64,000 nucleotides of DNA from Armatimonadota bacterium (GTDB lineage Bacteria > Armatimonadota > Fimbriimonadia > Fimbriimonadales > Fimbriimonadaceae). Positions 56,453 through 62,323 of the stretch are shown piece by piece (position 1 is the first letter of the stretch; the number at the start of each line of letters is the position of its first letter). The stretch spans positions 1 through 64,000 of the forward strand of contig JADFMN010000010.1 of the NCBI GenBank assembly GCA_022563855.1, in the 5' to 3' direction. The notes beneath the pieces were generated by a model. The model was not told where the DNA came from, made no database searches, and was given only the letters and a program-made list of their open reading frames with translations. The translations under genes and the position numbers were made by a program.

Positions 56453-57031
56453 TCAGCGCCGTCGATTGAGCACTACTGAGTCCAGCAATCTGAACGTGAC
56501 GAAGTACGTGCCTTCTTCCTTTATTATGTGAGTCAGTTCCCCTCTGTCCCTCGGCACGACGAACGGCGTATCACTTGGTGGCGCAAAGTGTTCGAGAGGA
56601 TCTCGGAATGCGGATTCTCGTGCAGAACTAAACGGCCAGTCACCAGGTGATGCACAAAGCTTAGCCTCGACCGGATTCATCTCAACGTACTTGCATGCCT
56701 GTGCAAAGTTCGCCTCCGACCGGACAAGGTGATTGAACGATTCTCTCTCCCAGAGTGTACCAGCGCGCCCCAGTTCTTGATTGATCCGCCTGGACGAGAA
56801 CTTCTTTACTGAGCCAAGCCAGTCGTTCAGTGAGAGAAGTCTAGACATCGTCACGATCGCGTGCACATGATTGAACATGACGCACCAAGCGTGGACGGAG
56901 TGACGTTCGCCTCGTTTGAACAGAATGACGTCTTCGACGATCTCCGCGAGCATTCGATCCCGCAGAATACACGAACCTCTCTTTAGACGAGATCTCTTGT
57001 CTTCACGTGCTACTGCTTGAAGGAAATCCAT
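56453..57031 (-). CDS. REP-associated tyrosine transposase (RAYT), apparently permuted
   Basis: 192 residues of the Y1/IS200-like RAYT group. VHAWCVMFNHVHAIV holds the metal HUH pair (H55, H57). The catalytic Tyr is probably Y115 in QACKYVEMNPVEAKL, followed by the usual SPGDWPFSSA. RAYTs nick REP DNA at a GTAG/GTGG tetranucleotide beside the hairpin; matching repeats flank this gene on both sides. Odd: the segment RGELTHIIKEEGTYFVTFRL, which normally begins such proteins, is at the C-terminus, and the normal N-terminal strand is missing. Either a circularly permuted protein or the junction of a collapsed tandem pair. Activity uncertain. Confidence 0.85.
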   Translation of the reverse strand: MDFLQAVAREDKRSRLKRGSCILRDRMLAEIVEDVILFKRGERHSVHAWCVMFNHVHAIVTMSRLLSLNDWLGSVKKFSSRRINQELGRAGTLWERESFNHLVRSEANFAQACKYVEMNPVEAKLCASPGDWPFSSARESAFRDPLEHFAPPSDTPFVVPRDRGELTHIIKEEGTYFVTFRLLDSVVLNRRR

Positions 57032-57098: not shown

Positions 57099-57845
57099 CT
57101 ATGGTTCGAATTCAATCTGTTGCGGCGCGAATACCTCGACGTCGACGCCTTTGCAGTAGTGGACGAGATCAGGCGGGCCGGACTTGGTGATGCCGAGCGC
57201 GGCGGTCAGCGACTCGTCGCACTCCAGGCACTCGGCCGTTTGAATCGGATACGGCTTGTGCCAGACGCGGCCGGTCATCAGCTTGTCCCCTTTCTTCGCA
57301 AACAACAGATACCGCTCGAAGATCCAGAACTCAAGAGTGCCCGGTGATGCCTCGAAGACGTCGCCGAACTCACCCATCCTTACTTGACACTTCGCGCCGC
57401 CGGGCGGAGGCCGGAGCCGCTCAGACTCGTACGCAAGCCCGTGTCCGTCGTCGTCGATCGACATCTTGGCAAGCGTGTATGTCAGTCCGAACCACCAGCG
57501 GGCAAAGCGCACTGCGAAGAGGTTTGCAGCGTCGAGCGAGAAGAACCACACGCCTGGTGATCCGCTCTCGTCCGTGACGTACGTGCGCACGTTCGTCTCG
57601 TGGAACGCGTTCGCTCCAGGTATTTCTGGAAGCCACGCGAAGCGTATCCCGTTCATTGTAAACAGCACGAGCCCAACGTACGCCTTCCCCTCATACGTCT
57701 CTACCGTCAGCCCATCGGGCAGCAGCGCTTGCATTTCCGCTGCGTCGGCTTCCCAGTGCAGAAAACTCAAGTGCCGCCAAGTGTGAAACATCGCTGGACT
57801 GCGGTCGGGCCTGTCTCTTAGGGCGAGCAATGCTTCGGTCTGCAT
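57099..57845 (-). CDS. DUF2071 (YqjF-like) protein
   Basis: 248 residues, cytoplasmic. DUF2071/YqjF motifs: HTWRHLSFLHWEADAAEMQA, LLPDGLTVETYEGKAYVGLV, NAFHETNVRTYVTDESGSPG, and GVWFFSLDAANLFAVRFAR. The fold resembles acetoacetate decarboxylase, but no activity is established. AAGGAG 5 nt before ATG 57845 gives a firm start. Only 10 bp separate it from the methyltransferase stop upstream, so the two genes are probably co-transcribed. Confidence 0.9.
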   Translation of the reverse strand: MQTEALLALRDRPDRSPAMFHTWRHLSFLHWEADAAEMQALLPDGLTVETYEGKAYVGLVLFTMNGIRFAWLPEIPGANAFHETNVRTYVTDESGSPGVWFFSLDAANLFAVRFARWWFGLTYTLAKMSIDDDGHGLAYESERLRPPPGGAKCQVRMGEFGDVFEASPGTLEFWIFERYLLFAKKGDKLMTGRVWHKPYPIQTAECLECDESLTAALGITKSGPPDLVHYCKGVDVEVFAPQQIEFEP

Positions 57846-57855
57846 TTCATCTCCT

Positions 57856-59136
57856 TCATATACCGTCGCCTGACCCAGCGACAGTTACATCTCCATAACT
57901 TCTCAAGGCCTGCGATTCTGTCTCCCACACCGACCGCATCAGTTCGTCGACGCAGGCAGAGCTTGCGCGCTCTGTGTCGAGCGTGAGGACGAACTCGACG
58001 TTGACCGGCTTCTTTGAGTACCGCTGAGCGCTGACTCTGTACCGCTTGTACACCTTCATGTCGATCGAGACGCGACCAAGCGCGACGTTCGCTTCGATCA
58101 GCTCCCGCAGCGGGATCGTGCCGTCCGTCGAGTAGCTGGTCAGCACGTAGCGCGCGTTGATCTCCCTCAGCAGGCTTCTATACTCGCCTATTGCGTCCGA
58201 TCGAGAGTTGTAGGCGCTTCTGCGCTCGGTTCGCCAATCGAGTCGAATCGCGGCCTTTGTTCCTGGGGTGATACGCTTGCTCAACAAAGGCTTGTCCCAA
58301 AGGGCGACCGAATTGAGCACATGGTAGTTGCTACCATAAGGGTGCTGGTTGTACGGCGGATCGATGTAGACGACGTCTAATCTGCGGCTGGCGAGGCTGC
58401 GAGCGACCTCGCTTGCATCTCCGCAGACGACTTCGTTCGCTCTGCCGTTGTCGCGGAACACCGAGGGTCTGAGTTTCAGATCGGTCGCGATGCGGTAAAG
58501 CGCGGTCCCCGTCTTCCCGCCCCAACCGTTGTGAAACCCTTTGAACACTCCGCTCGTGTTGCTGCGGTAGCACGCCTCGTACAGCAGCGGAGCGATCAGA
58601 CAGTCGCTCTCCGCACGGTCGATCGCTCCACCTTGCAGCCACTCTTCGATCTGCACGCGGATCGCGTCGATACGCATCCCGTTCTTCCGCATGTAGAACA
58701 TGCGGTCACGGCTCACGTCGTAATCGTCGTCGCTCAGCGGGCACAGGTGTTCGGTGACCCAGTCGACTCGGCCGGGAAGCTCGTTCAGCAATTTGATCGC
58801 TGAAACATAGCCGCCGAACGACGCAAACTCCGGCGGCTTGTTCTGGCCGATGTAACAACCGTTGATGCACCTCGCGTACGGCTCCCAATCGTTGGCGATG
58901 ACCTTGTATCCGAGCGTCTTTGCGAGACGAGACACGACGCCGCTGCCAGCGAACAGATCGACAAATACAGCGTCTTCATTTAGGTCGCATCGGCGCAGCG
59001 CAATTTGAATCAGATCAAGCAGTTTCCGCTTGCTGCCGATGTACGGAATCACCTGGTTGTACGCATACTCCTCCGTGCTGGCGGCCGCGTGTTGCCGCGC
59101 ATCGTACGGCATCAATTTCGTATGCTCAGGCGTCAC
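57856..59136 (-). CDS. D12-class N6-adenine DNA methyltransferase (orphan)
   Basis: 426 residues from GTG (an ATG at 59112 would give 418). Motif X-like IPYIGSKRKLLDLI, motif I DAVFVDLFAGSGVV (residues 56-68) for S-adenosylmethionine, and motif IV DVVYIDPPYNQHPYGSNYH (~253). The order X-I-TRD-IV is that of alpha-class D12 (Dam-like) enzymes. It methylates adenine in a specific DNA site; the site cannot be read from sequence. No restriction endonuclease is recognised next to it, though an unknown ORF lies divergently at 59339. Upstream of the DUF2071 gene by 10 bp. Confidence 0.88.
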   Translation of the reverse strand: MTPEHTKLMPYDARQHAAASTEEYAYNQVIPYIGSKRKLLDLIQIALRRCDLNEDAVFVDLFAGSGVVSRLAKTLGYKVIANDWEPYARCINGCYIGQNKPPEFASFGGYVSAIKLLNELPGRVDWVTEHLCPLSDDDYDVSRDRMFYMRKNGMRIDAIRVQIEEWLQGGAIDRAESDCLIAPLLYEACYRSNTSGVFKGFHNGWGGKTGTALYRIATDLKLRPSVFRDNGRANEVVCGDASEVARSLASRRLDVVYIDPPYNQHPYGSNYHVLNSVALWDKPLLSKRITPGTKAAIRLDWRTERRSAYNSRSDAIGEYRSLLREINARYVLTSYSTDGTIPLRELIEANVALGRVSIDMKVYKRYRVSAQRYSKKPVNVEFVLTLDTERASSACVDELMRSVWETESQALRSYGDVTVAGSGDGI

Positions 59137-59755: not shown

Positions 59756-60127
59756 CTAGTCGTCTTTATCCCCTCTGAACATGAACAGCGCGAAGAACGA
59801 CCGTCCGTGCGCAAAGATCCAGTAGCCGATCTCGACAAGCCACACGAGCGGCGGATACGACAACAGGCGCGCGAACCAACCCCAGCCGACGCGCTCCAAT
59901 ACGAACAGCGTTGCCCGTCCCGCCTTCAGCACACGGCCGTCGTTCGTCACGACGTGGACGGCGCGCTCGCACGCTTTGAAAATATCTGACGTCATCGGGG
60001 GCGTCGGCGCCTCTTGATACGGCGCGGATTGGAAAACGCGCTGTGTGTCTTTTCGCCTGGCCCAGGCGACCATGCGGCGTCACAGCCCTCATCCGCCGTC
60101 CCAAAGAATCCAGTGCCGGTCGTCCAT
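59756..60127 (-). CDS. DCC-family thiol-disulfide oxidoreductase with two in-frame TGA codons (putative UxxU selenoprotein)
   Basis: 123 residues if TGA is read through. Start ATG 60127-60125 shares its A with the pxpC stop (TGATG). The sequence MDDRHWILWDGGUGLURRM, then VAWARRKDTQ and APYQEAPTPPMT, matches the DCC family (DUF393), whose signature is DxxCxxC near residue 10. Here D10 is present, and the two cysteine positions, 13 and 16, are both TGA (60091-60089, 60082-60080). No other in-frame stop occurs; the rest (AVHVVTNDGRVLKAGRA, YPPLVWLVEIGYW) is intact family sequence. TGA is a normal stop in neighbouring genes, so general reassignment is excluded. Selenocysteine is the simplest reading. 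A conventional annotation would start at 60073 and lose the redox site. Confidence 0.8.
60053..60069 (-). promoter_or_regulatory. candidate bacterial SECIS hairpin
   Basis: On the minus strand TCGCCT-GGGCC-AGGCGA: a 6-bp perfect stem and a 5-base loop starting GG. It starts 10 nt after the second in-frame TGA, so the loop begins at +17, close to the spacing of the E. coli formate dehydrogenase SECIS. Bacterial SECIS elements need a G early in the apical loop, which is satisfied. Pairing was read by eye, not computed. Confidence 0.55.
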
Positions 60128-61008
60128 CAATGCCCGCTAACCAACAAGCTTATCAGCTTGAGCTGCGAGGACCGTCGAAGTTCGTCCTCGCCCCAAATCT
60201 CCTGTGCCGCCTCGCAGGTCGTCCGCTCGAAATAAACGGCAGCGCCAGCCATGAGCTGCCCTAGCCGATCCAGGTCCGCACGAATGATCGTGCCGAGCTT
60301 GCGGTAGCCGCCGATTGTCGGGCCATCCGGTCCGTGGATCATGATAGTGCCATCTTCCGAAGCCTGAATCGAGCCGAACACCGACGGCTCGCTGATCTCC
60401 GTAGCGGGAGCAGAAGCAACCGGCGTACCTCGGAGACGCAATCCGACGCGGTTGATCTCGCGTGTGACCTGGTACTGACCGTGCAGCGCTTCGTCTGGGC
60501 CGATGTAGCGCAAACGTCTGCTCGTCATCGAGGCGGGTTCGTCGGCAAGTGAGGTCGGCTGAGCAGCGCTCCGCGTTTCGGCGCTGCAAAGCACATCGCC
60601 GGAATCGACGATCGTGCCCGACGCGCTTCCGAGAATCGGCTTGGCGCACCAACCCCCGGGGGCTGCAACGTACGTCCGCAGACCGACGACCGGCGGCCCG
60701 ATCTCCACGCGGTCTCCTTTCCGCAGTTGCAGAAGCGACCGGGCTGGATACGTCTTTTCGTCGACCGATACGTCCCGCGCCCCGCCGACCACTGCTATCG
60801 CACCCGCTTCGAGCGCTTCAAACTCAAGCGTTCCAAGCGCGAACTCGATCGAGGGCGCACCCAGGTCGTTCCGCACCAGGGCGTTTGCCAGCGCAAAAGA
60901 CTCGCGGTCGAAAGCGCCTCCCGGCGGGACGCCGTGCTTCCGTCTGCCAGGCCGACCGGCGTCTTCCAGCGACGCGATCCCGATCATTCGCCCGATCTCA
61001 ATCTTCAC
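60127..61008 (-). CDS. pxpC: 5-oxoprolinase subunit C (biotin-dependent carboxyltransferase-like)
   Basis: 293 residues, cytoplasmic. PxpC/KipA family: LEDAGRPGRRKHGVPPGGAF at the start, EFALGTLEFEALEAGAIAVV, LRTYVAAPGGW, RLRYIGPDEAL, and IMIHGPDGPTIGGYRKLGTI. With PxpA and PxpB it opens the 5-oxoproline ring with ATP to give glutamate. GTG start overlaps the pxpA stop (GTGA). Its own TGA overlaps the next gene's ATG, so the DCC-family gene is translated from the same message. Confidence 0.92.
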   Translation of the reverse strand: MKIEIGRMIGIASLEDAGRPGRRKHGVPPGGAFDRESFALANALVRNDLGAPSIEFALGTLEFEALEAGAIAVVGGARDVSVDEKTYPARSLLQLRKGDRVEIGPPVVGLRTYVAAPGGWCAKPILGSASGTIVDSGDVLCSAETRSAAQPTSLADEPASMTSRRLRYIGPDEALHGQYQVTREINRVGLRLRGTPVASAPATEISEPSVFGSIQASEDGTIMIHGPDGPTIGGYRKLGTIIRADLDRLGQLMAGAAVYFERTTCEAAQEIWGEDELRRSSQLKLISLLVSGH

Positions 61009-61679
61009 GCCCTAACCTCATAGCCGGCGTCAGACAGAGTGCGCAGCACGTGCTCTGCGATCGCAACGCAGCCTGGAGTGTCGCCGTGGACGCAAATTGA
61101 GTCAACCCGCCGGGCCAGGCGCAAGACCTGTGCTGCGATCTCATCATGGCTCGAAAGAACGGCCCCGCTCTGCGATCTGGCGACGAGTATTCCGTCCGAA
61201 TCGTACGCGCGATCGGCAAAACCCTCGCGAATCAGCCGAACGCCAGCGACCCGCGCTATTTCTTCATGGTGCGTGCCCGGCATTCCGAGCAACGGCTCCT
61301 TGCCCGATGACAAAAGAGTGGCCACCGCATCCGCCGCGAGGCCGGGAACGATCGTGCCGTTGTACAGCGCGCCGTGCGGCTTGACGTAATCCCACTCTGC
61401 TACCTCCAGTTGATCCACAAGGCTTGATAGCAGATCGTCGCGCTCCTCTTTGCTTGTGATTCTCAAGGGAGTGCGCCCCATCCCTGCGCGATCCGGCACA
61501 CCGGGGTGCGCCCCGACCCTTACCCCTGCCGTTATGCACTTCGCGACCGTTGCCATCGTAAGATCGACGGAGCCCGCGTGCGCGCCGCAGCACACGTTCG
61601 CGCTCGTGGCTATTCGCAGCAGCTCGCCGTCGAAAGCAAACCCCTCGCCGACGTCCACGTTGATGTCGATCACCTTCAC
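61005..61679 (-). CDS. pxpA: 5-oxoprolinase subunit A (LamB/YcsF family)
   Basis: 224 residues. LamB/YcsF signatures: VIDINVDVGEGFAFDGELL, SANVCCGAHAGSVDLTMATV, GVRVGAHPGVPDRAGMGR, YVKPHGALYNG, and SICVHGDTPGCVAIA. Members bind and phosphorylate or open 5-oxoproline in the PxpABC complex. Slightly shorter than the usual ~245-250 residues, with a compact opening, but all motifs are present. GTG start in a GTGA overlap with pxpB; GGAGAGAGG precedes it. Confidence 0.93.
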   Translation of the reverse strand: MKVIDINVDVGEGFAFDGELLRIATSANVCCGAHAGSVDLTMATVAKCITAGVRVGAHPGVPDRAGMGRTPLRITSKEERDDLLSSLVDQLEVAEWDYVKPHGALYNGTIVPGLAADAVATLLSSGKEPLLGMPGTHHEEIARVAGVRLIREGFADRAYDSDGILVARSQSGAVLSSHDEIAAQVLRLARRVDSICVHGDTPGCVAIAEHVLRTLSDAGYEVRA

Positions 61680-62323
61680 AGCCTCTCTCCTTGCAGGCTC
61701 TTATAATCGCGCAATCCGATCGCCCTGAATGCGACCCGATCTCCGGCGCTGATCGGAAAGTAATCCTCCGACATGTTCACGATTTCCAGAGGCGTGATGC
61801 CCAGCAGCCTCCAACCGCCGGGTCTTCCGCCGGGGTAAATGCCGGTCTGTCGCCCCGCTACAGCGACCGCTCCGTTCGGAACCATGAGCCTCGGGGCAGC
61901 CAGCCGCCCAAGTCCCGCGATCTGCGAAGGCAAGTAGCCCAAATACGGAAACCCAGGCGAAAACCCGACTGCGTAACACGTGTATTCGACCGACGTGTGG
62001 TGTCGCACCAGATCATCTGGCGATAGATCAAGCTCGCTGGCGCTCGACTCTAAATCCTCGCCCAAGTCGTAGCAGACCGGCACTTCGTGCAACTTTCCCA
62101 CAACCCCCTGCTGATAAGGTGTGGATTGTTCCAGCGCTCCCTGAAGGGCTTCGAGGTCAAACTCGGATGGATCGACGTAAACTCCGAGCGTATCGTAAGA
62201 AGCGCTTACCTCCAGAACGCCGGGAAGGTTCAGCCGCTCGACTCTTGCGGCGACGACGAACGCCGGCGCAAAGTCGATGTCGCGTACGATGAACGCAGCG
62301 TCGCCGAGCGGCTCGATCCTCAT
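61676..62323 (-). CDS. pxpB: 5-oxoprolinase subunit B (KipI-like)
   Basis: 215 residues. PxpB/KipI family: [17 protein letters not shown] at the start, [33 protein letters not shown] then [15 protein letters not shown], and [19 protein letters not shown]. First gene of the operon pxpB-pxpA-pxpC-DCC, all with overlapping start and stop codons. TAAGCT stands six bases before ATG 62323 with no Shine-Dalgarno, so the operon message is probably leaderless. Divergent from dut by 29 bp. Confidence 0.93.

Follow-up and report, generated by a model that had tools for sequence, protein, structure and literature searches.

The window, i.e., the whole 64,000-nucleotide stretch of Armatimonadota DNA analyzed here, raises the question of whether a small redox protein of the DCC family (PF04134, DCC1-like thiol-disulfide oxidoreductase, formerly DUF393) can contain Sec at both of its active-site positions, and whether the two UGA codons found there are both decoded. 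The original prediction had described a single minus-strand frame from 60127 to 59756 with UGA at both redox Cys codons of the family. Translation of this frame gives MDDRHWILWDGGUGLURRMVAWARRKD...RGDKDD followed by TAG, with no in-frame stop before the TAG besides UGA codons 13 and 16, and its features are as follows:

59756 to 60127, minus strand: DCC-family (PF04134) gene for a predicted selenoprotein (123 aa; Sec13 and Sec16), ending in TAG
60089 to 60091, minus strand: first UGA, codon 13 (Sec13), aligned with the first redox Cys; UGA also in genomes G048, G131, and G042
60080 to 60082, minus strand: second UGA, codon 16 (Sec16), aligned with the second redox Cys; UGA also in genomes G048, G131, G054, and G211

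When the UGA codons are read as Cys, the product matches PF04134 (DCC1-like) with 59.6 bits (gathering cut-off 27.8), which together with the translation confirms the predicted frame. PF04134 is the sole Pfam match of the protein at E up to 1, and the window gene is the only DCC gene in this genome. The protein shares with the DCC family the whole-length domain, the D-G-x-[CU]-x-x-[CU] signature, in which the two redox residues stand three apart, and the predicted fold; it differs in that both redox Cys codons are UGA, giving DGGUGLU. An AF2 model built from a 40-sequence alignment (pLDDT 88, pTM 0.78) places a strand at residues 5-9 and a helix at residues 14-26; positions 13 and 16 fall where this helix begins, as in thioredoxin-like proteins. 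The order of strands and helices is also that expected for a thioredoxin-like fold, and the best PDB matches, although weak (Foldseek E of at least 0.04, Z of at most 6.3), are mostly thioredoxin, glutaredoxin, and GST N-domains.

Under the standard code, the gene opens only at 60073, and standard gene callers would accordingly start there, as had been anticipated. The true product could therefore be a 105-aa protein translated from ATG 60073, past both UGAs and without the redox residues. Such a start, however, would remove the family-defining DxxCxxC strand-loop-helix beginning of the domain, the conserved family sequence already starts at 60109, and the hairpin 3' of the UGAs described below would be left unexplained. 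Moreover, ATG 60127 overlaps the stop codon of the preceding gene, so that a shortened product appears exceedingly improbable. This preceding gene, pxpC, is the last of a 5-oxoprolinase run (pxpB-pxpA-pxpC) situated directly before the DCC gene:

60127 to 61008, minus strand: pxpC (5-oxoprolinase subunit C, CT_A_B), located upstream, with a TGA stop that overlaps the DCC ATG
61005 to 61679, minus strand: pxpA (LamB_YcsF)
61676 to 62323, minus strand: pxpB (CT_C_D)

The pxpC stop (TGA, 60129-60127) and the DCC start codon share one A, and the reported fusion of the DCC start to this stop thus holds. Since pxpC ends in UGA, reassignment of this codon throughout the genome is excluded, as the original prediction had argued.

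The host assembly (Armatimonadota, Fimbriimonadia) comprises 3.18 Mb and is 96% complete. It contains SelA (433 bits), SelB (345 bits, cut-off 242) with a complete C-terminal part, tRNA-Sec (74 bits, anticodon TCA), and SelD (359 bits; G000:C4:338766-339668, L053), all located on contigs other than that of the window, and all four genes that had been named as a check on the Sec reading (selA, selB, selC, and selD) are therefore present. The host SelD carries a UGA of its own at the usual place, in the context KCAGUASK, and is therefore a second Sec gene in this genome. Formate dehydrogenase is the usual reason for retaining Sec decoding. None of the six host molybdopterin oxidoreductase genes (L187-L192), which were checked as possible Sec-containing formate dehydrogenases, has an internal stop, so this usual reason is not seen here.

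To identify relatives, PF04134 and a subfamily alignment were read through stops, first within the order and later across 291 genomes of the phylum, which for the most part look like draft assemblies of metagenome type. Six UGA-bearing DCC genes were detected in the 291 genomes, the window gene counted in:

UxxU: G000 (window, DGGUGLU), G048 (DGGUPFU), and G131 (DGGUGFU)
UxxC: G042 (EGGUAIC)
CxxU: G054 (DGECGLU) and G211 (DGNCGFU)

These six genes belong to different genera and hold nine UGAs, every one of which (9/9) lies on one of the two redox codons; the UxxU form is retained in three separate genera (G000, G048, and G131). No interior TAA, TAG, or frameshift occurs in any of them. In the other 46 members of the subfamily, both redox codons are TGC or TGT, so that TGA exchanges only with Cys codons at these two positions, which is the pattern that the original prediction had asked of a homolog alignment. 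The occurrence of UxxU, UxxC, and CxxU relatives makes the case for a selenoprotein much stronger. In addition, purifying selection acts 3' of the UGAs, as dN among the nearest relatives is 0.37-0.44 compared with a dS of 1.2-2.2 (dN/dS about 0.17-0.35).

These observations bear on two further explanations. Formally, the window gene has two stops within a 124-codon frame of a draft genome, and it could be a decaying pseudogene or the product of a sequencing or assembly error with two coincidental nonsense changes. Nine UGAs restricted to the redox codons of six genes from different genera, free of other stops and frameshifts, the selection downstream of the UGAs, and the conserved hairpin already contradict this explanation, whose probability is negligible; decay is as implausible an account of the two TGAs as had been supposed. 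Alternatively, UGA, being open in the DCC frame, could be read as another amino acid, e.g., Trp, through suppression or local reassignment. The neighboring pxpC uses UGA as a stop, however, the residue aligned with UGA in homologs is always Cys and never Trp, and the Sec machinery is complete, all of which make such a reading scarcely credible.

SelA and tRNA-Sec (TCA) are found in the genomes with a UGA form, except for G054 (73% complete), in which neither was found; its congener G052 has both. About half of the genomes with a Cys form have SelA as well. The presence of UGA thus does not clearly track that of SelA, and the comparison is consistent with the Sec reading and not discriminating. 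In G131, SelA lies in three pieces over about 1 kb (G131:C85:47314-48340, L181), which suggests frameshifts in that assembly. In the gene tree the six UGA genes are scattered (6 changes), but its resolution is too low to distinguish a single origin followed by losses from repeated gains. As to the wider search for relatives, alignment A2 for the back-translated scan was dropped as too divergent, a scan with a narrower back-translated alignment yielded two Cys-form Armatimonadota loci, and a search of viral contigs gave no relatives of the DCC gene.

A hairpin with the properties of a bacterial SECIS element lies within the coding sequence, shortly after the two UGAs:

60053 to 60069, minus strand: SECIS hairpin UCGCCUG-GGC-CAGGCGA, 7 bp, loop GGC, inside the coding sequence

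This hairpin starts 10 nt past the second UGA and 19 nt past the first, and its loop lies 17 and 26 nt past the second and first UGA, respectively. Five of the six UGA genes possess such a perfect hairpin with a GGC or GGU loop, beginning about 10 nt past the second redox codon; the stems measure 7, 9, 7, 7, and 7 bp, and the loop starts 17 nt past the second redox codon. The four other hairpins are:

G131: CCGCCUG-GGU-CAGGCGG
G042: UCGCCUG-GGU-CAGGCGA
G054: GCGCCUG-GGU-CAGGCGC
G048: GCUGCCUG-GGC-CAGGCGGC

The CxxU gene of G211 lacks the shared hairpin and matches only the loose bSECIS model described below. At the same position, none of 69 Cys homologs (0/69) forms a comparable structure, the stem there reaching at most 3 bp. 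For example, a peptide of the same kind (AAWVRRRD) is encoded in the Cys gene of G143, but by synonymous codons (GUG CGU CGU instead of GUC AGG CGx), and the hairpin is absent. The probability of such a stem under random synonymous codons, drawn according to the codon usage of the window, is 0.0015-0.009 per gene. Furthermore, the 15-nt core of the hairpin is 93% identical between genes, compared with 39-50% in the flanks. The outermost pair varies (CG, UA, or GC) and the other pairs hardly do; hence, covariation evidence is thin, and it is conservation and specificity that carry the case.

A published bSECIS model specifies a loop of 3-9 nt, a stem of 4-16 bp, G in the first two positions of the loop, a UGA-to-loop spacing of 16-37 nt, and an energy of at most -7.5 kcal/mol (PMC13188914). 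The window hairpin lies within all of these limits for both UGAs (7 bp, GGC, 17 and 26 nt, -9.8 kcal/mol). The SECIS check suggested with the original prediction therefore has a positive outcome, namely, a hairpin that is conserved and specific to UGA genes. This loose model is also passed somewhere by 28 of the 46 Cys homologs; on its own it discriminates nothing and was rejected as a discriminator. Rfam at a permissive threshold returned neither a SECIS element nor any other relevant family, as expected from the wide variation of bacterial SECIS elements. A covariance model of the hairpin region found only the window locus in the host genome (72 bits, next 16) and thus reveals no other selenoproteins.

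Whether one hairpin serves both codons is a separate question, which the single-UGA relatives help to answer. The same hairpin follows a UGA at the near position in G054 (CxxU) and at the far position in G042 (UxxC), and UxxU genes have UGAs at both distances; in the simplest reading, one SECIS probably serves both UGAs. It is conceivable, although unlikely, that only one UGA is efficiently decoded, i.e., the second, and that the first mostly terminates translation, attenuates expression in a selenium-dependent manner, or takes another amino acid. The hairpin begins at an E. coli-like distance (10 nt) from the second UGA but at 19 nt from the first, and read-through of UGA in bacteria is inefficient even once (PMC8659212). 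Against this, the only UGA of G042 is the one at the first position, and it too lies 19 nt ahead of the hairpin. Both loop distances, 17 and 26 nt, fall within the published UGA-to-loop range of 16-37 nt (PMC13188914), and UxxU persists in three different genera. In CxxC proteins, furthermore, it is normally the first residue that acts as the nucleophile.

With its intact frame, the exchange of UGA with Cys codons, a complete sel machinery, and a conserved hairpin, all observed in the sequence, the window gene very probably encodes a 123-aa thioredoxin-like DCC oxidoreductase with Sec at both active-site positions (DGGUGLU). In the proposed mechanism, the hairpin at 60069-60053 would be bound by SelB loaded with Sec-tRNA-Sec, which would decode first the UGA 26 nt from the loop (codon 13) and then the one 17 nt from it (codon 16). 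The two Sec residues (Sec13 and Sec16), placed where the first helix begins, may alternate between a diselenide and a selenol/selenolate pair during thiol-disulfide exchange. They would constitute a diselenide/diselenol center of a disulfide oxidoreductase for which no export signal is obvious.

The pxpABC genes were not seen beside the other UGA-bearing DCC genes, so their adjacency in the window lends no strong support to a connection with the turnover of 5-oxoproline or glutathione. No operon is conserved across the UGA genes, save for DUF2071 (COG2071) near two of them, close downstream of the Sec-form DCC gene:

57099 to 57845 of the window, minus strand: DUF2071
3999 to 4793 of L041 (G054): DUF2071

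DUF2071 is a possible functional partner of the DCC gene. In the window, a solitary D12-class adenine DNA methyltransferase gene (57856-59136, minus strand) is located between the DCC gene and DUF2071, and an IS200-like (Y1_Tnp) transposase gene is found at 56453-57031 on the same strand. In G048, a molybdopterin oxidoreductase gene (L042 3-2501) immediately precedes the UxxU gene and has the same orientation.

Reviews of prokaryotic selenoproteins from 2022 (DCC/DUF393) and 2026 (PF04134/DCC/DUF393) do not list this family, no NCBIfam model matches the window protein, and a search of the full-text, mostly open-access literature for DCC, DUF393, PF04134, COG3011, or YuxK selenoproteins returned no relevant report. 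As far as the open literature shows, this is thus a new selenoprotein family, although its class and its decoding mechanism are known. The predicted UxxU oxidoreductase is supported, but the two-Sec motif itself is not without precedent, as UxxU is known in other prokaryotic families (PMC13188914, PMC2398784). Selenoprotein L (SelL) and bacterial Prx-like proteins share the UxxU redox motif (PMC2398784), and a diselenide bond in SelL is described in a passage of PMC2397514 citing Shchedrina 2007; the window protein belongs to a different family, with no PF00578 or PF04592 match at E up to 1. The metal-binding protein NF041115 and an FmdB-like protein (PMC13188914) likewise contain two Sec in one UxxU motif, but their domains are unrelated to that of the window protein. 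Its hairpin resembles the E. coli-type SECIS (17-nt ggttgcaggtctgcacc, PMC3834832), likewise a 17-nt hairpin just past the UGA with a GG[U/C] loop. Differences in stem and placement exist, however, since the window hairpin has a perfect 7-bp stem without a bulge and is placed for two UGAs 9 nt apart. The E. coli SECIS stem has a bulge. Unusual features are the occurrence of all four Cys/Sec combinations and, probably, the use of a single SECIS for two UGAs.

The DCC proteins described here are likely to represent a previously unlisted selenoprotein family that occurs with all four active-site types (UxxU, UxxC, CxxU, and CxxC), in which one fixed intragenic SECIS decodes two UGAs 9 nt apart to build a diselenide center. 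In genomes with a Sec-form DCC gene, standard gene callers would drop the active site, and the DCC redox chemistry of these organisms can therefore easily escape notice in databases. Because CxxC, CxxU, UxxC, and UxxU versions of one small domain occur naturally, the contribution of each selenium could be measured, and with UGAs at 17 and 26 nt the family is a defined case for asking if a single bacterial SECIS can serve two. Overall, these findings extend the predicted use of selenoproteins in the little-studied Armatimonadota.
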